Shown: positions 5,476 to 36,605 of the stretch, piece by piece
Numbering within the stretch: the stretch's first letter is position 1
Layout of the letters: the number at the start of each line of letters is the position of its first letter
The notes under the pieces: model-generated
The model's input: the letters and a program-made list of their open reading frames with translations, nothing else
Databases searched by the model: none
What the model was told of the DNA's origin: nothing
Assembly: GCF_900100855.1 (NCBI RefSeq)
Contig: NZ_FNCB01000002.1
Location: 186,001-250,000, forward strand
Source of the DNA: Idiomarina zobellii
GTDB taxonomy: Bacteria; Pseudomonadota; Gammaproteobacteria; Enterobacterales; Alteromonadaceae
DNA length: 64,000 nucleotides
Direction of reading: 5' to 3'
Made by a program: the position numbers and the translations under genes

Positions 5476-8187
5476 ATGGCGAACTCCTCAAAGACTGATG
5501 AGCTCGTCCGTGTTGTCCGAAGTCCCAGTGACAAGCGTGACTATCAGCACTTGGTTTTAGATAACCAACTTAAAGTGCTGTTAGTCCATTGTCCTGATAG
5601 CGTGAAAGCGGCAGGCTCCATAGCCATCAGTGCAGGTCACTTTGACGATCCGCCGCATACCCAAGGTCTCGCTCACTTTCTAGAGCACATGTTTTTCATG
5701 GGCAGCCAGTCTTACCCTGAGCCCAGCGCCTTCAATGATTTTCTTAGCGCTCATGGCGGTCAGCACAACGCCTGGACAGGCACTGAATTTACTAATTTCC
5801 ACTTTGACTGTAATGCAAACGCACTTGAAGCCGCATTTGAGCGTTTTGCCTCAATTTTAAAAGAGCCTCTTTTTTCCGATAAGTGGATTCAAAAAGAAAA
5901 ACAGTCCATTGAGTCTGAGTTTCGTTTAAAACAAAAAGATGAGTTACGTCGCCTGTATCAGGTTCATAAAGTGACGGCTAATCAGGATCATCCCTTTTCT
6001 CTGTTTTCTGTTGGAAACTTAAATACCTTAAAAGATGATGAGCACGGTACTTTACAACAGAAGCTTAAGCGCTTTTATGAGTCTCATTTCAGCGCAAATC
6101 GAATGCAGCTGGTACTTGCCGGTCCACAATCGTTGACAGAACTAGAGGCTATCGCGACTCGTCATTTTTCTGACTTTCAAAATCATGCACAACCAAAAAC
6201 GGCCATAACTGAACCTCTGTATACTGAGGAACAAAAAGGCCTTTTCATTCAGGTAAAACCATTAAAAGATGCCTACCGCCTTATTCTCACCTTTCCGTTA
6301 CCAGGCATTGACCAGGATTACCGAAACAAAACCACCAGTTTTATTGCGCATATTGTCGGGTACGAAGGTCCCGGCAGTTTATTTAACTGCTTACGCGACA
6401 AAGGCTGGATAAACTCTTTATCTGCTGGCGGAGGGATTAGCGGTAGCAACTTTAAAGACTTTAATGTCAACATTCAGCTAACCCTATCGGGTCGAAAAAA
6501 TATCGACACCATACTGCAATGGGTTTTTGCTTACTTGCGAAAGGTGAAAACCGAGGGAATAGAAGACTGGCGTTATCAAGAAAGAAAAATTACGTCTGAG
6601 TTAAGCTTTCTTTATCAGGAGCCAACGCCCGTCGGTGAATTAGCCAGCCAATTAAGCATCAACGCTTTTCATTATAGTTTGGAAGACACCATTTACGGTG
6701 ACTACCGAATGGATGAGCTTAATAATGCTTACGCTGAAAAATTACTGACGCTAATGACGCCAAAACACAGTCGTATTACGTTAATCGCTCCTGATGTCAA
6801 AACCGATCGGGAAGCGCCTATTTACAATACTCAATACAGCGTAGAAAAACTCACTGAGTCGCAATTAACGAAGCTTAGTCAAACACCCGCAGAGTTCATC
6901 GCCAAACTGCCCGAGCGCAACCGTTTTATAAATGACCGGTTACACCCGCAACCACTAGAAAACGAGACGTTACTGCCGGAATGCATTTCAAGTTCCGATT
7001 TGATGGAGCTGTGGCACTTGCAAGATACCGAGTTCCGCGTACCTAAGGGGCATATTTATTTAGCATTGAAATTACCTGCAGTAACCAGTTCAGCTTATTA
7101 CTTCGCAATTGCCCGACTTTGGTCTGAACTCATTATAGACGCCTTAAATGATGATCTTTATGACGCTGAAGTTGCCGGGCTGCATTTTAATATTTACCCC
7201 ACTCAGCAAGGTATTGTTATTCACACAACGGGATTGTCAGAGGGGCAACTTCCGTTAATGTCACATTTAATGAAACGCGCCTTAGTACTTAAATTTGCGC
7301 ACCGTCGTTTCCGAGATATAAAGCAAACCCTAGTTGCCAACTGGCAATCTGCGCATCAAAATCAACCATTAAACAAGCTTTTCGCAGAGCTCAATCAGCA
7401 ATTACAACCTGGACTTTTTAGGCTGCCCGAGCTTGCCAACCAGCTCTCTGCTTTATCTTTTCGTGAGTTTACTCAAGCATTAGAGAGAATGTTCGAGCCA
7501 GTGTATATAAAAGCCTTTATGCACGGAGACTGGCAAACGCGTCAAGCGCACGAACTTGCTGAACTTATTCAGGCAAACTTGCCCACTGAGCGCCCGGCAC
7601 AAAAAGACAGAGATTCGGTTAAAAAAGTCAGCGAATTTTCTAACCAAGAACTTGAGGTTCCCTGCTCTCATCCTGATAACGCTATTTTACTTTATCAGCA
7701 AGGCAACAATGACAGTGAGCGAGAGCAAATTTGCTATATGTTACTTCAGCAGTTAGTACATCAAGCGTTCTTTCATGATATCCGCACCGAGAAACAGTTA
7801 GGTTATGCGGCGGGTAGTCAATACTTTCCTGTTCAGCGTCTACCCGGCATTTTATTTTTTGTTCAATCCAATAGTGCACCAACCGACACCTTATTTGACG
7901 AAGTTTCAGATAGCCTTGAAAAGCTGTTCAGTCGACTAGATACAACCACGCTGAAAGTTTGGCACCACACCAAAGCGGTTCTTCAACAACAAATACGCAC
8001 ACGCGACAGAAGCCTTCGGGTTAAGAGTCAACGCTTATGGGGTGCTATTCAATTGGGCGACACATCATTTAACCGCCAGCTCAGATTACTGGACGCACTT
8101 GATAATTATCAATTAACCGACTGGCTGACTGACATACGACAAAAATTGTCACAAAATTCAGGTTGGTTGAGGCTTCAAACAAGCTAG
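5476..8187 (+). CDS. Insulinase-family (M16) zinc protease, pitrilysin-like
   Basis: Large M16A metalloprotease of the pitrilysin/insulin-degrading-enzyme type, 903 residues. The inverted zinc motif HxxEH is His67, Glu70 and His71, and Glu148 lies 77 residues after His71, the spacing known for pitrilysin. The C-terminal half is the inactive partner domain, with the family signature RTEKQLGYAAG near residue 775. A strong AAGGAG ribosome-binding site precedes ATG at 5476. Unlike E. coli PtrA, the N-terminus (MANSSKTDELVRVV) shows no signal peptide, so a cytoplasmic role in oligopeptide degradation is likely. The substrate is unknown. Confidence 0.9.
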   Translation: MANSSKTDELVRVVRSPSDKRDYQHLVLDNQLKVLLVHCPDSVKAAGSIAISAGHFDDPPHTQGLAHFLEHMFFMGSQSYPEPSAFNDFLSAHGGQHNAWTGTEFTNFHFDCNANALEAAFERFASILKEPLFSDKWIQKEKQSIESEFRLKQKDELRRLYQVHKVTANQDHPFSLFSVGNLNTLKDDEHGTLQQKLKRFYESHFSANRMQLVLAGPQSLTELEAIATRHFSDFQNHAQPKTAITEPLYTEEQKGLFIQVKPLKDAYRLILTFPLPGIDQDYRNKTTSFIAHIVGYEGPGSLFNCLRDKGWINSLSAGGGISGSNFKDFNVNIQLTLSGRKNIDTILQWVFAYLRKVKTEGIEDWRYQERKITSELSFLYQEPTPVGELASQLSINAFHYSLEDTIYGDYRMDELNNAYAEKLLTLMTPKHSRITLIAPDVKTDREAPIYNTQYSVEKLTESQLTKLSQTPAEFIAKLPERNRFINDRLHPQPLENETLLPECISSSDLMELWHLQDTEFRVPKGHIYLALKLPAVTSSAYYFAIARLWSELIIDALNDDLYDAEVAGLHFNIYPTQQGIVIHTTGLSEGQLPLMSHLMKRALVLKFAHRRFRDIKQTLVANWQSAHQNQPLNKLFAELNQQLQPGLFRLPELANQLSALSFREFTQALERMFEPVYIKAFMHGDWQTRQAHELAELIQANLPTERPAQKDRDSVKKVSEFSNQELEVPCSHPDNAILLYQQGNNDSEREQICYMLLQQLVHQAFFHDIRTEKQLGYAAGSQYFPVQRLPGILFFVQSNSAPTDTLFDEVSDSLEKLFSRLDTTTLKVWHHTKAVLQQQIRTRDRSLRVKSQRLWGAIQLGDTSFNRQLRLLDALDNYQLTDWLTDIRQKLSQNSGWLRLQTS

Positions 8188-8207
8188 CAAGCCAAGTAAA
8201 ATAGGCT

Positions 8208-8236
8208 TTGACAGCGGGTTATCAAACCGATAACTT
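8208..8236 (+). promoter_or_regulatory. Promoter with embedded inverted repeat, upstream of the GGDEF/EAL gene
   Basis: A consensus -35 TTGACA (8208-8213) is followed after 17 bases by TAACTT (8231-8236). The spacer and -10 contain the perfect inverted repeat GTTATC-AAACC-GATAAC (8218-8234), placed where a repressor would block RNA polymerase. No regulator is known; the operator role is inferred. Confidence 0.5.
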
Positions 8237-8285
8237 AACAATATATTAACAAAAAGAGCCGTTTTAGCGGCCTACTGGGTACTCT

Positions 8286-11200
8286 GTGACATTTTCTTTG
8301 TATACGAGGGCGTGCGCCAGCGCCGCAGTATTCTTTTTGCTTTCATTCACGAGTCAGCTAATGGCTCAACCTACGTCTACGCTGGACTTTCAACCAGAGG
8401 ACGTTAAGTTCCTGTCATCTGCCAATGGTCTACCCAGCAATTATATTCGCGACATCGAAATAGGTCCTCAAGGCTTTCTATGGCTCTCAACCGCTAAGGG
8501 TTTAGCCCGGTATGACGGTGTTGACCTAAACAATATCAATAGCCTGAACATCGATGCAGTTAACCATGCCGGTTCAGGCACCCTATTAACTATTGGCAAT
8601 TCTTTATGGACGACTACAGATCATCGTTTATGGCGTCTTCAAAAAAACGCTGAATGGACTTCAACCCTTTTTCCAAAGCATGACACAACCGCTTTCAAAG
8701 TGAACACCTTCACTGAAGGGCAGGATGGCCTGTTATTTATCGGAACCTCTGAGAGCCTGCTCACATTCAATCCGCAAACTCAGCACTTTAAAGAAAAAGC
8801 GCTTAACTATAACGGGCAACCAGTAACGAATATTCACTTTATTGAGTTTCACGGTGGCTGGTTTTGGTTGAGCAGCGGCTCCGGAGGTATCTATGTATGG
8901 GATGGTTACTCCGATAACGTTTTCTCAGTAACAAAGCGCAACCCCATATCGGACACTGTAAATGCCTCTGAAGTTAAAGCAATAACATGGTTTGAAAGCG
9001 CATTTTGGCTAGCGACCAATAGCGGGTTGAGGTTACTTAATAATGAGCTTCGCAGCGTTCAAACCCCACAACCAATTAATGAGCTAAAAGCGGTCGTTAC
9101 CGATATTGAAAGGCACGACAACCAATTATTCATAGCCACCGAACAAGGGCTCTACAGTTACAGTAACAAACAGTTAGCGCAATTAACGCAAAGCCCAGCC
9201 ACGGGGAAAATTGAGTTTTCTAATAACGGTGACCTGTTTCTGGCAACCTCGTCGAATGGGCTAGTCGAAATACCAAATTCTTATGCGCCAGCGATATTAA
9301 AACACTACACTGTCCCTAACCATTTGCCTGATAGTATCAAATCTCATTTACCAGAATCGTTAAAGAGAACGGGTAGCTATACTCAGACAAGCGAACATCA
9401 GTACTGGATACAGTCTGACTTGGGAATGGTTAATTACGACTTTATAAAAAAAGAAATTATAACTATCGCAGAGTCGCCGGTAAGCATTGAAAACGTTGCT
9501 GATATCGAAGCCTACTCTGACGATATCTTCTTGTTGACGAAAACACACCAGCTGTATAAATACAATACGGTGGAAAGCGAATGGCAACGCCTTGACTACG
9601 GCCTAAACTTAAATGATTCATTTTGGCTCACTCGTTTAGGCGAGACATTGTGGCTACATTCAGAAAACAATGCTTATGCCATTAATCCGTTTTCTGAAAT
9701 ATCTGAAAGAAAAAAAATAAACCCGGCGCTGCCGCTAAAAAACGCCTCCCTTGCCATAGATATTAAACCTTCGGGCAGCGCGGCAGAAGCTTGGTTTTCG
9801 TTACCATTTTCCAGAGTCGGTAACACACTCACCTATCGCTACAAGCTCGATAAAAATCAAACCACATGGTCTTACATTCAACATAGCGAACTGCCATTAC
9901 AACTGAACCAGCCATTTCCAGGCACCTATCAGCTTACTGCTCAGGCCTCTTTAAACGGGGAGAACTGGTACGCACAGAATGAAACAAGCTATAGCATCAC
10001 TCATTCTTTTTGGACAACTCCCTACGCAATTTTGGGGTATAGCATTGTCGCTTTACTCGCTCTTGGTATTACCATTGTCCTCTATCGTTTTAAGCTCAAG
10101 CAACTAACGAACCTCACTACGTCACTGAATGGTCAGGCAAAAGCGCTTCAGTTCAGTCGCAGCCAGTATTGGCAGTGGAACCTCTCTACAGGTGAACTAT
10201 TGAGGCAGTATATTTGGCCAGACTGCCCTGCGTTTCCGGTCGATGGTCGTCGCCTTAAGTCACCGGAAAACACTTCATCAAATATTCACCCAGGTGACGT
10301 TAACCGCTTACAAGAGGCAATAGATAACCATGTAAATGGGCAAACGGAATATTACGAGTGTTCCTATCGAATAAACAATAACGGCGCCTGGCTTTGGGTA
10401 TTGGATCAAGGCAGGATCGAGAAGCAAAACGGCGTCGATGTCATGCATGGCACGCTCAGCGACGTTAGCAGCTTAGTTAGCTCGCAAGACCGAATTGATA
10501 TGTTGGCAGCTTCTATTACCAACATTTCCGATGGCATTTGTATTTTCGACCGCTTTTTCAAGAAGGTAGAAGTAAACAAGGCTTTTGAGCGCATTTTAGG
10601 CTACCCCCGTGAGCAAGCTTTGGGAAAAAGCTTCCACCTTGATCTTTATTCTGAAGAGTTTACTAACCAAATTAAACGCACGGTCATAAAAGAAGGTACC
10701 TGGCGTGGAGAGTTAACCGACATTAAAGCTGACGGTAGTGAGTTCTTAATAGAGCTTACCCTGGATGCCGTTCATGATGACGAAGGCGCTTTGTCTTTCA
10801 TCGTCGCCAGCTTTTCTGATATTACGGAGCGCCAGCGCACCGAGAGCGAGCTAAGACGCCTTTCCAATACGGATACCTTAACCGGTCTGCCAAACCGCTC
10901 TTACTTTCAGGTGAGTCACTCAAACTTAGTGCGTAAGAAAGTCTCTCACACCCTGTTACTATTTGACTTAGACGACTTTAAAAAGGTCAACGACTCGCTG
11001 GGACATGAAGTTGGTGATGACTTGCTCTGCCTGGTTGCTGAGCGGCTTATGGATATTAGTCGGCGGCAGGACACACTGTACCGACTGGGTGGTGATGAGT
11101 TCGGCTTGCTGATTGAAGACAGCACCGACTTGCACCTTATCGGTGACTTAGCGCACAAGATAAACAGAACCATCGCTGAACCCTATTCCGTTAATAATCA

Positions 11201-32277: not shown

Positions 32278-33141
32278 ATGTCAGCTCAAATTATTGATGG
32301 AAAAGCAATCGCCAGTGCCGTGCGCCAGTCGGTCAAACAGCAAGTTCAGGAAAGACTTCAGTCCGGTCTAAGAGCACCAGGTTTAGCCGTTGTATTGGTC
32401 GGCGCTGACCCAGCTTCGGAAGTTTACGTTGGCAATAAGCGGCGTGCTTGCGAAGAGGTTGGTTTCCGTTCATTTGCTTATGACTTACCAGCGACAACCA
32501 CTCAGGAAAAGCTTGAGGCTTTAATAGACCAACTGAACGACGACAACGACATCGACGGTATTCTGGTTCAATTACCGTTACCTGCGGGCCTTGATGCAAC
32601 ACCTATTTTAGAGAGAATTCGCCCCGATAAAGACGTCGATGGTTTTCACCCTTTCAATGTAGGTCGTCTGTCACAACGCATTCCCGCATTACGTCCGTGC
32701 ACACCCAAAGGCATTATAACTTTGCTAGAGCATACGCAAGTTGACTTACATGGGCTCAATGCGGTTGTTGTCGGTGCCTCTAACATTGTCGGCCGTCCAA
32801 TGAGCCTGGAGTTATTATTAGCGGGTGCAACAACCACTGTTTGTCACCGCTTCACCAATGATTTATCGGAACATGTTAAGCGTGCGGACATTCTGGTTGT
32901 TGCCGTTGGTAAGCCCGACTTCATTCCGGGAGAGTGGGTGAAACCGGGCGCTATAGTTATTGATGTGGGTATGAACCGCTTACCCGACGGACGTTTAACT
33001 GGCGATATCGAATTTGAACCGGCGGCAGAGCGCGCCGGTTGGATCACCCCTGTGCCTGGTGGCGTCGGACCAATGACGGTGGCTTCGCTCATCGAGAATA
33101 CACTCCAGGCCTGTGTCGACTATCACGACAAACGAGATTAG
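32278..33141 (+). CDS. folD: Bifunctional methylenetetrahydrofolate dehydrogenase / methenyltetrahydrofolate cyclohydrolase FolD
   Basis: One-carbon metabolism enzyme that interconverts 5,10-methylene- and 10-formyl-tetrahydrofolate with NADP. The 287 residues include the family motif [17 protein letters not shown] with the catalytic Lys near residue 54. The signatures [21 protein letters not shown] (nucleotide binding) and [15 protein letters not shown] are also present. ATG at 32278. Divergent from the tRNA cluster and convergent with the TadE-like gene, eight bases away. Confidence 0.96.
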
Positions 33142-33149
33142 TTCAACCA

Positions 33150-33878
33150 CTAACGACGGAAGCCGCTCTGCAAAGAGTGCTGGGCGGTATCCGTTAACGC
33201 CCATAAAGGGTAGTCACTCATACCTTCCCTCAGCTTGCAGTAACGAACGGCCGTTGAATTATCTAAGAAACCTTGTGCAGAGCTCAGCATTTCAGCGACA
33301 AAAGGAATTTTTAATGGCAGGCACCAGTCTGTCCGTATTTTTAACACCCTCGCCTCGTGCCATTCAGCCGGTGTGTTTTCGTCGTACCGAGCATGATAAT
33401 GATCCACCGCTATTTCCGTAACATCCCGCTCTAAATCGTAGTCCCAGCGCTCTTCCGAATACTCGCGAAAATCCTGTGGTGTCGGAGATAAAATGTCTAG
33501 CTGAGCAAAGCGTGTGAAGTGGAAACGCTGCTTAGCAATAGCCAGAGTTGTTGCGTATGCAAGGTTGTCTTGGTCGAGCTGAGGCTCTAAACCTGCCATT
33601 CCTGACACTAATGTCGTCACCATGGTTTGATAGTCTCCATGGTTAATCGCTCCCGCTCGAACCGTATATTGATTAGCAACGGTTAAGGTCTGCTGAGACC
33701 ACCAAATAATAAGCGCCTGAACAACCAAAAAGACAAAGGTAACAAGTATCGGCCAAACAACAATGAGTTCGATACTCGCCTGCCCCAAGCTGCGCTTTTG
33801 CTCTGTGTGTTCTGGAAAAGAAAAACCCGCTGCTGAGGAAGCAGCGGGAAGTGCTATGTCTGACTTAGACGATAACAT
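33150..33878 (-). CDS. Orphan TadE-like protein
   Basis: 242-residue protein with one N-terminal membrane helix in a TadE/TadF-type segment (GQASIELIVVWP, then LVTFVFLVVQALIIWW, about residues 32-60). A Gly followed five residues later by Glu (G-QASI-E) resembles the prepilin-peptidase site of TadE/F pseudopilins. The remainder (about 180 residues, two Cys) is unrecognised. ATG at 33878 has a strong GGAGGT site. No other tad genes are nearby; folD and topA flank it. A perfect terminator-like hairpin lies inside codons 11-19, so a later, weak start (TTG near 33793) cannot be excluded. Confidence 0.72.
   Translation of the reverse strand: MLSSKSDIALPAASSAAGFSFPEHTEQKRSLGQASIELIVVWPILVTFVFLVVQALIIWWSQQTLTVANQYTVRAGAINHGDYQTMVTTLVSGMAGLEPQLDQDNLAYATTLAIAKQRFHFTRFAQLDILSPTPQDFREYSEERWDYDLERDVTEIAVDHYHARYDENTPAEWHEARVLKIRTDWCLPLKIPFVAEMLSSAQGFLDNSTAVRYCKLREGMSDYPLWALTDTAQHSLQSGFRR
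33821..33848 (-). terminator. Intrinsic terminator-like hairpin inside the TadE-like gene
   Basis: CCCGCTGC pairs perfectly with GCAGCGGG (33826-33833 with 33841-33848, 7-base loop), followed on the minus strand by TTTTTCTTTT. It lies about 30 bases inside the reading frame. It may terminate topA readthrough or attenuate the gene itself. Confidence 0.65.
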
Positions 33879-33898
33879 GGGACCTCCGTGTCCAACGT

Positions 33899-33931
33899 GC
33901 GGTGTCTTACCTTTGACACCCGCGCATTATA
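33899..33931 (-). promoter_or_regulatory. TATAAT box and overlapping palindrome upstream of the TadE-like gene
   Basis: Minus-strand TATAAT (33926-33931) has no good -35. Immediately downstream is GGTGTC-N8-GACACC (33901-33920), extendable to eight pairs with a bulge, covering the expected start point. It could be an operator or a 5' RNA hairpin. A further 11-bp hairpin without T-run lies between this and topA (33942-33969). Confidence 0.45.
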
Positions 33932-33989
33932 CGAGAGGTTAACTCAGTAAGGCTATTAGCCAACTGAGTATCCGCTTGTCAGTGTTTAA

Positions 33990-36605
33990 CTACTTAGCGT
34001 CAACGACCCACTTACCGTCGCGATAAAAGGCTTTCCAGCCCGTTTGCTTCTTGTTCACCTCAGTGACTACGTATTGCTCTTTATTCTTACGTGAGAAGCG
34101 AACAATGGCATCATTACCGTCGTCATCCTCTTGCGGTGCCTCAGCAAGATACAGAAACTTCTTAGGCAAGCGCTCTTTGAAGCGAGCTAACTCTTTTACC
34201 GTTACCGCACGAGTTTCGCGCGACTTCGGAAAGGTATTTGCCGATAAGAAAATACCCGAGGCTCCGTCTCGCAAAACAAAATATGCGTCGGAGTCTTCGC
34301 AAGGTAATTCGGGTAACGGTACCGGGTCTTCTTTTGGTGGTGCAGGCTCGCCATTTCTAAGTAACTTACGTGTGTTCTTGCACTCACTATTGGTACAACC
34401 GAAGTACTTACCGAAACGCCCATTTTTAAGCTGCATTTCAGAGCCGCACTTATCGCATTCAATAGTCGGACCGTCATACCCTTTAATGCGGAATTTTCCG
34501 CGTTCGAGTAACTGCCCGTCGCAGGTTGGGTTGTTACCACACACGTGCAACTTGCGTTGTTCATCAATTAAATAGCTGTCCATAGCGGTACCGCATTTCG
34601 GGCAGCGCTTCTTAGCACGCAGAGCTTCTGTTTCCCGCTCTTCTTCGTCACTGACTTCTATGGCTTCTTCACCAGGTGTCAGGTTAATTGTCTTAGTGCA
34701 GCGTTCTTTCGGTGGCAGGTTATAACCAGAGCAACCAAGAAACACACCCGTTGATGCGGTACGAATGCCCATTTTGCGCCCACATTCCGGGCAATCAATA
34801 TCGGTCAGCACCACACTGTTTGCGCGCATGCCTCCTTCTTCGGGGTCAAGCTCCGCCTTTTCCAGCCGCTGCTTGAAGTCTTCATAAAAGCTGTCCAGCG
34901 TTTCTTTCCAATTACGCTTACCGGCCGCAATGTCATCAAGCGCCTGTTCCATTTCGGCAGTAAAATTGTAATTCATCAGCTCAGTGAAGTTTTCTATCAA
35001 GCGGTCATTGACAATTTCGCCCATCTTCTCAGCAAAGAAACGACGGTTTTCTACACGCACGTAACCGCGGTCCTGAATGGTCGAAATAATAGACGCGTAG
35101 GTTGAAGGTCGGCCAATGCCGCGCTTTTCTAACTCTTTAACCAAGGATGCTTCACTGTACCGTGCCGGAGGCTTCGTGAAGTGTTGCTCTGGCTCTAAGT
35201 GCTCAAGTGTCAGTGAATCACCTTTTTTCAAGTCCGGTAAGTTCGTATCACCGTCCTTTTTCGATGAAGGTGGCATCACTTTTGTCCAGCCCGGGAAGCG
35301 CATAACCCGACCGCGAGCTTTCAATTCAAAATCCCCGGCCGTAGCGATTAATGTCGTGCTGTCGTACTTAGCTGGCGTCATCTGACAAGCGACAAATTGG
35401 CGCCAAATCAACTCGTAAAGGCGCTGAGCATCTCGTTCCATTGACGACAAAGACGACGCTTTAATAGCAACATCTGATGGGCGTATCGCTTCGTGGGCTT
35501 CCTGTGCGTTACTTTTTGCACCATAACGATTAGGCGACTCCGGCAAATACTTTTTGCCGAACTCACTTTCAATAAGCCCCCGACATGCATTAACTGCTTC
35601 TGAGCTTAGGTTCGTCGAGTCGGTACGCATATAGGTGATATGCCCCGCTTCATACAACCGCTGAGCCATCATCATTGTCTTTTTAACGCCAAACCCTAGC
35701 CGCGTACTAGCCGCCTGTTGCAAGGTCGACGTAATAAAAGGCGCACCAGGCTTGCTGGAAGTCGGCTTATCTTCACGAGAAGTTATCTCGTAATCCGCAC
35801 CTTTTAGTAAGTTTAATGCTTTATTGGTTTCTTCTTCATTAACCGGGCGGAAGTTTTTGCCGGCTTCTTTAATAACCTGCATACGTAGCTTATCGCTTGC
35901 AGTGCTGGCTAAATCAGCATAAACGTCCCAATATTCTTCCGGTACAAAGGCTTTAATTTCGCGCTCGCGCTCAACCACTAAACGCACAGCGACTGACTGT
36001 ACGCGCCCGGCGGACAAACCTCTTGCAACCTTTTTCCACAATAGCGGCGACACCATAAAACCAACGACACGGTCGAGGAAGCGCCGTGTCTGTTGAGCAT
36101 TCACACGATCAGTATTTAATTGTGCCGGGTGTTTAAACGCTTCCTGAATGGCGTTTTTGGTAATTTCGTTAAATACCACACGCTTAAAGCGGTCGTCCTC
36201 GCCACCAATTAATTCCCGCAAGTGCCAGGCAATTGCCTCCCCCTCGCGGTCCAAATCCGTTGCGAGAATAATTTCGTCTGACTTTTTCGCCAGTTGCTTG
36301 AGCTCTTTAACGACTTTCTCTTTTCCCTGAAGTACTTCGTAATGGGCTTCCCAGTCATTTTCCGGGTCGATACCCATGCGAGCTATCAAGCGTTTATAGT
36401 CACGCTCTTTCTGATACTTCGCTTTTGCTTCAGGCGACATTTTGCGAACTTCTGCTGCCGGCTTGCTTTTAACCGTTTCAGTCGCACGCGTTGGCAGATC
36501 ACGTACGTGACCAACGCTGGACTTAACCACAAAGTCCTTACCCAGATACTTATTAATGGTTTTGGCTTTTGCCGGAGACTCGACAATGACGAGCGATTTA
36601 GCCAT
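33990..36605 (-). CDS. topA: DNA topoisomerase I
   Basis: Type IA topoisomerase that relaxes negative supercoils. The 871 residues contain the Toprim domain at the N-terminus ([26 protein letters not shown]), the active-site Tyr325 in ITYMRTDS, and a C-terminal series of four-Cys zinc ribbons starting at [16 protein letters not shown] (three recognisable) followed by a basic tail. The length matches E. coli TopA. ATG at 36605. The upstream 289-base gap to astB holds its promoter region. Confidence 0.97.

Follow-up and report, generated by a model that had tools for sequence, protein, structure and literature searches.

A putative CsrA-type pilus leader, probably captured through a deletion, ahead of an orphan TadE-like gene in Idiomarina zobellii

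In the sections of the literature on CsrA and RsmA that are drawn on here, the loops of CsrB carry CAGGA(U/A/C)G, RsmE prefers a loop of the type ANGGAN, and CsrA bridges sites that lie 10-63 nucleotides (nt) apart, with glgC as the model leader (PMC7652899). A locus that may be compared with these systems lies within a 64,000-nt stretch of the Idiomarina zobellii genome, the window analysed here. It centres on a TadE-like gene, tadE (33150..33878, minus strand), an open reading frame (ORF) of 242 codons that begins at ATG 33878 downstream of topA and has a GC-rich hairpin within its first codons. The explanation that best accounts for the observations, to which a probability of about 0.62 can be given, is that tadE captured a CsrA-type pilus leader through a deletion of about 6.6 kb, and that the in-frame hairpin now ends topA transcripts and limits tadE. 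An earlier note, made from the sequence of the window alone, had pointed to the orphan gene and its internal terminator; the cause that it missed is the absence of a pilus cluster, the leader of whose first gene now precedes its last gene.

A deletion is suggested by the interval between topA (33990..36605, minus strand) and the convergent gene folD (32278..33141, plus strand), the neighbour of tadE in every one of the 19 genomes of the genus. This interval measures 850-856 nt in ten genomes, that of the window included, 7.3-7.6 kb in eight and about 8.7 kb in G012; in the nine genomes with the longer intervals a pilus-gene cluster stands between topA and tadE, and in the ten it is gone. In I. 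seosinensis (locus L021) the extra DNA consists of eight genes in a row ahead of tadE: pilL, a gene for a PilN-like secretin, two genes without assignment, and those for a T2SSE ATPase, a T2SSF protein, a PilS-like prepilin and a small protein with a prepilin-like start. The Pfam families for secretin, ATPase, platform protein and PilS-type prepilin (PF00263, PF00437, PF00482 and PF08805) thus occur in one run; the first, third, fourth and eighth genes matched no Pfam family, and for the secretin the best match was TIGR02520, the PilN equivalog, at 211 bits, short of its cut-off of 288. The other cluster-bearing species were compared with this one by similarity, in part. We take the first gene to be pilL from its position in the run, no family having matched, and the R64-like thin pilus names used for the cluster are likewise partly presumed. 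In the sister genus, pilL and pilN matches were found downstream of topA in 17 of 17 genomes. A topA tree places the ten short-interval genomes in one group (support 94/93), next to a group of seven cluster-bearing genomes (100/99); G012 branches outside these, followed by G014 (97/95 and 85/77). From this grouping, the interval lengths and the pilL and pilN genes of the sister genus, we infer that the ancestor of these ten genomes, hereafter clade A (comprising A1 and A2), lost the cluster, about 6.6 kb. The cluster-bearing relatives other than G012 are divided into B1 (G001, G004, G006 and G014) and B2 (four other species).

All of the elements that the earlier note had listed are present on the minus strand. 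The first is a -10-like box, TATAAT (33926..33931), which aligns with TAACAT, TACAGT or TAGAGT in relatives and whose T, A and last T are invariant in 14 of 14 aligned leaders; a good -35 is absent, and a sigma-70 scan of 32500-36500 returned no -35/-10 pair. The palindrome GGTGTC-N8-GACACC (33901..33920) is read here as an RNA hairpin with the core GTGTC/GACAC, all five pairs of which are kept in the same 14 leaders, one being altered on both sides in G014 (GTGCC...GGCAC); its loop is 8 nt in clade A and 5 nt in B1. This palindrome had been placed over the expected start, which holds for the point where a transcript driven by TATAAT would begin and fails for the ATG, since it ends 22 bases upstream of 33878. 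Within the window a 6-bp inverted repeat with a spacer of 8 occurs 23 times and TATAAT 20 times, so that these two elements carry no meaning alone. The Shine-Dalgarno (SD) sequence GGAGGT (33882..33887), which precedes ATG 33878, is held in the six-base ANGGAN loop of GGAC-ACGGAG-GTCC (33880..33893). The GGA that overlaps the SD sequence is found in such a loop, with four pairs (GGAC-A(C/T)GGAG-GTCC), in 10 of 10 clade A leaders; across the leaders this hairpin shows one compensatory change (G006) and one broken pair (G014). A further hairpin that would span the start codon, TGTTAT...ATAGCA (33852..33877), is predicted by folding for the window and most clade A leaders. In read-through RNA from topA, the segment AACCTCTCG (33932..33940) is a potential partner of the SD sequence, judged by opening energy: the window's SD sequence costs 6.8 kcal/mol to open, against 4.2 with shuffled upstream sequence, and 2 of 60 shuffles were as high. 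Shuffles as strong numbered 0, 0, 1 and 0 of 60 in the B1 genomes and 2, 2, 4 and 9 in A1.

The in-frame hairpin, CCCGCTGCT-TCCTC-AGCAGCGGG (33826..33848), has a loop of 5 nt, occupies codons 11-18 and is followed by the T tract TTTTTCTTTT (33816..33825), the whole (33848-33816) covering codons 11-21. The stem had been put at 8 bp about 30 bases into the frame; the GC-rich stem, T tract and position stand, the stem beginning at base +31, and the length is 9 bp. With 5-7 T among the first 8 bases after the stem in 10 of 10 clade A genomes, the structure has the form of an intrinsic terminator. A strict scan of the whole window, which asked for a perfect stem of 8 or more and for 6 or more T in 8, gave five hits at four places, and six shuffled windows gave none; three of these places fall between ORFs that are 150 amino acids or longer, which leaves that in tadE as the sole strict intra-ORF terminator of the window. 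On the minus strand from topA to the end of folD neither terminator scan revealed a second terminator-like site, and the tadE hairpin is the only terminator candidate for topA. The RNA from 33989 to 33800 folds with z = -4.75. A structure competing with the terminator was considered and rejected; the terminator stem folds alone in 10 of 10 clade A leaders. An Rfam search of 33100-34300 found no match at E up to 1.

The leader is that of pilL. In B1 the region ahead of pilL has the same layout as that ahead of tadE in the ten genomes, namely a -10-like box, GTGTC...GACAC, the SD sequence with its flanks, and ATG. A covariance model built from the ten leaders only, searched against 25 partly overlapping sources (267 kb), recovered the four B1 pilL leaders and nothing else at E <= 1, two of these matches being weak (E 0.07 and 0.37). 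Since the B1 species also bear the leader and fall outside the ten, the leader predates the deletion. The B2 species are without leader and hairpin, and have directly after topA a canonical terminator of the type GGGGCGAT-ATCGCCCC-TTTTTT. The pattern GGAYANGGAGRTC has 24 occurrences in the 19 genomes, and its reverse has 5; known leaders account for 13 of the 24, and of the 11 others one (L085) precedes a 394-amino-acid ORF and none has the GTGTC/GACAC hairpin. A search of 147 genomes of the family with a model, R1, gave four leaders, all from Idiomarina, and, in G023, a single weak place with no matching ORF. That place (L133, G023:C1:1149552-1149623) reads GCGTGCC-AAGGA-AGGCACG and then GGC-AAGGAG-GCC, with no ORF behind it, and could be a CsrA-binding RNA of another genus.

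The likeness to CsrA targets is clearest in B1 and the sister genus. Hairpins with GGA in the loop were counted in the 130 nt after the topA stop, SD sequence and first codons included. At a stem of 5 or more they are present in 13 of 17 sister-genus leaders (0.88 expected) and 4 of 4 in B1 (0.20 expected), and at a stem of 4 in 10 of 10 clade A leaders (1.79 expected); in each case none of 200 shuffles was as high. The single case among the four B2 species is the topA terminator itself. Such a hairpin stands upstream of the SD sequence in 8 of the 17 leaders of the sister genus and in 3 of the 4 of B1, and is lacking in the window's clade, where the SD loop ACGGAG is the only GGA loop that remains. 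Examples from the sister genus are AGCCGAC-AGGAU-GUCGGCU (G187) and AAACGCCAAC-AGGAU-GUUGGCGUUU (G196). From 21 leaders (17 sister-genus, 4 B1), 11 hairpins were picked for an AGGAN loop; in 11 of 11 the GGA of the hairpin is 18-23 nt from that of the SD sequence, which itself is often in a hairpin loop. These hairpins are 87% paired, against 24-55% when slid, a percentage that the selection inflates; the covariation, which is inflated less, amounts to 19 cells altered on both sides where shuffles give 5.6 (0 of 500). The number of pairs altered on both sides is nothing unusual (5 against 3.4; 69 of 500). The genome has two csrA matches over the cut-off. In L145 and L150 (G100 and G198) the gap between topA and pilL is 17 and 19 nt, and the GGA-loop hairpin falls within the first pilL codons instead of the leader.

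The earlier note had asked for an alignment to decide whether codons 1-25 are conserved as protein or as hairpin. The answer is mainly as RNA, with the frame kept; codons 1-21 of tadE are conserved mainly in this way. G000 and G003 agree at 53 of 53 positions between the -10 box and the ATG and at 29 of 30 in codons 1-10; in the flanks they agree at 39 of 57 on the upstream side and, beyond the T tract, at 7 of 20 (plus 6 gaps). In the same pair the non-synonymous (dN) and synonymous (dS) substitution rates are 0.23 and 0.34 for codons 2-32, and 0.06 and 1.33 for the mature part. The leader dN/dS ranges from 0.11 to 1.0 across ten pairs, and leader dS is below mature dS in all eight pairs for which both were computed. 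Fourfold (wobble) sites are invariant at 4 of 6 positions in stem codons, against 2 of 39 in the others (Fisher p = 0.0014). When codons were recoded synonymously, with the codon usage of the window's topA and folD applied to every species, the B1 in-frame pilL hairpins were equalled in 0, 0, 1 and 2 of 200 recodings and the B2 species, not significant, in 50, 164, 109 and 189. In the sister genus, 14 of the 17 genomes were tested, as the start-finding rule gave no start in the other three; 8 of the 14 had an in-frame hairpin equalled in at most 5 of 100 recodings, and six were above this level (G191, 11; G194, 66; G192, 6; G189, 28; G196, 25; G198, 12). G028 scored 0 of 200 in one run and 3 of 100 in another. 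The in-frame stems of different species are unrelated in sequence, that of G014 having 11 perfect pairs and coding for PVTASVTG; the MAFFT alignment of these hairpins, being out of register, was excluded from pair counts. A full T tract is seen only in clade A, with partial tracts in G001 and G186.

The tadE product matches Pfam TadE (PF07811) over residues 32-68 at 31.1 bits, above the cut-off of 22.9. At E <= 0.001 this family identifies a single TadE in each of 17 genomes out of 19; the orthologues of the other two, where it finds none, were recovered with a profile of the genus, which gives one orthologue per genome in 19 of 19 and no internal stops. The conserved protein begins at a prepilin-peptidase-like motif, G32|QASIE (33768..33785, minus strand), of which Q33 and E37 are invariant in all 19; the next residue is L where the prepilin motif requires F, and in three B1 relatives, which do have EF, the G is replaced by A. 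The genome has one prepilin peptidase match, and it appears from the sequence that the peptide of codons 1-32 would be removed at G32|Q33. An AlphaFold2 model from the 19 orthologues (mean predicted local distance difference test score, pLDDT, 81) has an unstructured beginning (residues 1-27), a long helix at 26-78 and then a mixed domain. No PDB sequence matched the product at E up to 0.1, and Foldseek found nothing in the PDB at E <= 0.001 with the model. The idea that tadE is a pseudogene was rejected, since there is no stop in 19 of 19 and the mature dN/dS is 0.05-0.11 in four close pairs (dS < 1.4).

These observations suggest the following course of events. The ancestor would have had topA followed by a type IVb-like pilus operon running from pilL to tadE. 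The pilL leader would have offered an AGGAN-loop RNA hairpin and then an SD sequence in an ANGGAG hairpin, the layout of dual-site repression by CsrA, with a GC-rich hairpin in the first pilL codons. A deletion of about 6.6 kb in one lineage would then have joined leader, start codon and in-frame hairpin, in frame, onto tadE, the last gene of the operon, where the hairpin with its full T tract would act as an intrinsic terminator. RNA polymerase arriving from topA, with no other terminator candidate before folD, would stop in codons 11-21, and the low expression of tadE would come from read-through or from a ribosome that arrives early enough to cover the hairpin. Given the usual rates of transcription and initiation, a ribosome that starts at 33878 would seldom reach the stem before polymerase has passed, so that termination would be the default and expression low. 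Whatever keeps ribosomes off, be it SD pairing in the read-through RNA or CsrA on the SD loop, would favour termination, and CsrA, if it still binds that loop, would deepen it. Codons 1-32 would be able to serve as RNA because the peptidase would cut their peptide off. The hairpin thus probably serves both as terminator of topA and as attenuator of tadE. The earlier note had treated as exclusive a topA terminator with a later gene start and attenuation from within the gene; of these parts only the later start falls. A bolder and more tentative extension, which we consider rather unlikely, is a switch: a ribosome block by CsrA would let the nascent in-frame hairpin stall or stop polymerase, silencing the whole pilus operon from its first gene. 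Such a switch would span two genera, its stem turning over and its fold staying, and would have outlived the operon on another gene as a full terminator that may release a CsrA-binding leader RNA.

Several observations weigh against capture of a CsrA-type leader. In clade A none of the ten leaders has a GGA-loop hairpin with a stem of 5 or more, and the first loop is without GGA, being AAAGGUAA in A1 and AUUGAA in A2. No CsrB-family RNA (RF00018) was found in this genome by a search that, among 14 control genomes, was positive only for E. coli. Upstream pairing of the SD sequence is unsupported in the six A2 genomes, where 9 to 38 of 60 shuffles were as strong. The in-frame hairpin of clade A is not significant alone against recoding (5-20 of 200), because the peptide PAA..AAG favours a hairpin, and that of G012, which has the cluster, is not significant either (95 of 200). 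In two close A2 pairs the leader dN/dS is 0.11 and 0.17, values compatible with some constraint on the protein. The T tract is missing from three of the four B1 hairpins and most of those of the sister genus, and the ancestral hairpin was therefore probably not an intrinsic terminator. Finally, the support for clade A (94/93) is slightly below the mark of the tree program.

Of the alternatives, the one that survives best, though it is distinctly less probable than capture of a regulatory leader, is that the hairpin is merely the topA terminator, tolerated by tadE in an unconstrained, cut-off peptide and regulating nothing. It is the sole terminator candidate before folD, the stem wobble sites are conserved, and the B2 species, which are without it, have a canonical terminator after topA. 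However, the near identity of G000 and G003 from the -10 box through codon 10 exceeds what a terminator needs, and pilL of other species repeatedly has in-frame hairpins that lack a T tract. A small RNA gene of about 105 nt, bounded by the -10 box and the T tract, overlapping the tadE start and possibly binding CsrA, is a doubtful alternative. Its borders coincide with the conserved island of -10-like box, four hairpins and terminator, but a good -35 is lacking, SD sequence, ATG and frame are kept along with it, B1 leaders mostly have no T tract, and Rfam gave no match.

The operator suggested by the earlier note, at which a repressor would control tadE, is very unlikely. Arms of 6 bp do flank the expected transcription start, and the palindrome is real; nevertheless its spacer is 8 in clade A and 5 in B1, sister-genus hairpins at the same place have altered, covarying arms around a constant AGGA loop (AGGAU or AGGAC), and repeats of this kind are common by chance in the window. 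A gene start downstream of the hairpin, with ATG 33878 unused, is the least credible, for although strong protein conservation begins only near Q33, leader dN is close to dS in most pairs and residues 1-27 have pLDDT < 50, no ATG, GTG or TTG between hairpin and G32 is common to the ten genomes (this one has only a TTG, codon 31), the SD sequence and ATG 33878 are kept in all ten, and changes in length between hairpin and G|QASIE are multiples of three.

The absence of tad genes holds locally, there being no T2SSE-family ATPase in the 64-kb window, and not for the genome: the proposed search for distant tad genes revealed a Tad-like cluster about 117 kb away on the same contig, with an RcpC/CpaB-like protein, a secretin, TadA, two T2SSF proteins, a tetratricopeptide repeat protein and a 63-amino-acid ORF with the pilin-like beginning RGQASVE. 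The cluster adjoins smpB (L098, G000:C13:97000-106000; pilin-like ORF at 6927-7118), and ahead of it are two ORFs (7115-7621 and 7671-8738, minus strand) that share DxWxW repeats and have no Pfam match. A close TadA match is present in 18 of 19 genomes, reading through one TAA each in G009, G010 and G013 (all B2). The remaining genome, G017, is a single contig without TadA and with tadE intact, so that simple service to the distant cluster, though possible, is not favoured; the partner of TadE may be that machine or a different type IV filament. The stop codons of tadE and folD are 8 bases apart (33139-33152), because of which a folD terminator, if any, would fall within tadE, where there is only a weak candidate (33316-33333).

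If correct, this is a case of a regulatory RNA that outlived its operon and was then captured by another gene, and it indicates that RNA control can reside in coding sequence whose peptide is later removed from the protein. A terminator in the first codons of an orphan TadE gene would thereby be accounted for by known kinds of element, a CsrA-type leader and an intrinsic attenuator, whose history is unusual. Between them, the genus and its sister supply a natural series, with both CsrA-type loops, one or none, and a hairpin with or without a T tract, that is suited to asking whether CsrA control of pilus genes couples to early termination. Title searches for Idiomarina TadE, Idiomarina type IV pilus and topA-folD (the last blunted by the ubiquitous 'fold') gave nothing on this locus; those for a terminator with a signal peptide gave none, those for CsrA with a pilus operon nothing on such a system, and those for CsrA with type IVb pilus only a cholera review.

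Among known systems, the cluster of the relatives most resembles an R64-like type IVb thin pilus operon, as it has a secretin best matched by PilN, a T2SSE ATPase, a T2SSF protein and a PilS-like prepilin in one run (L021); it differs in a secretin below the PilN cut-off, a TadE-like last gene and four genes without Pfam family. The tadE product shares the TadE domain and G-x4-E motif with the TadE and TadF pseudopilins of Tad pili, as far as the part of PMC10934763 consulted describes them, but has GxxxxEL in place of GxxxxEF, no adjoining tad genes, and a type IVb-like cluster in relatives. A predicted transcript end within coding sequence recalls premature termination and ORF-internal 3' ends in E. 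coli, where ftsO is also marked by conserved wobble positions; in the portion of PMC7815308 available these ends are mostly due to Rho or processing, whereas here a canonical intrinsic terminator occupies codons 11-21 in ten genomes. The SD/anti-SD hairpin in RsmA control of psl, as outlined in the relevant part of PMC7652899, is paralleled in B1 and A1 by an SD sequence able to pair upstream; here, however, the pairing is predicted, is absent in A2, and has its 5' arm upstream of the -10-like box. The closest likeness is to the glgC-type CsrA/RsmA leaders described in the same part of that source (PMC7652899): sister-genus and B1 leaders have a hairpin with CAGGA(U/A/C)G or near it and the SD GGA 18-23 nt further on, a spacing within the 10-63 nt that CsrA bridges, in a genus where the present genome has two csrA genes. 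The window's clade departs from that model in having GGA in the SD loop only, with the in-frame hairpin or terminator behind it, and in it CsrA binding is a prediction.

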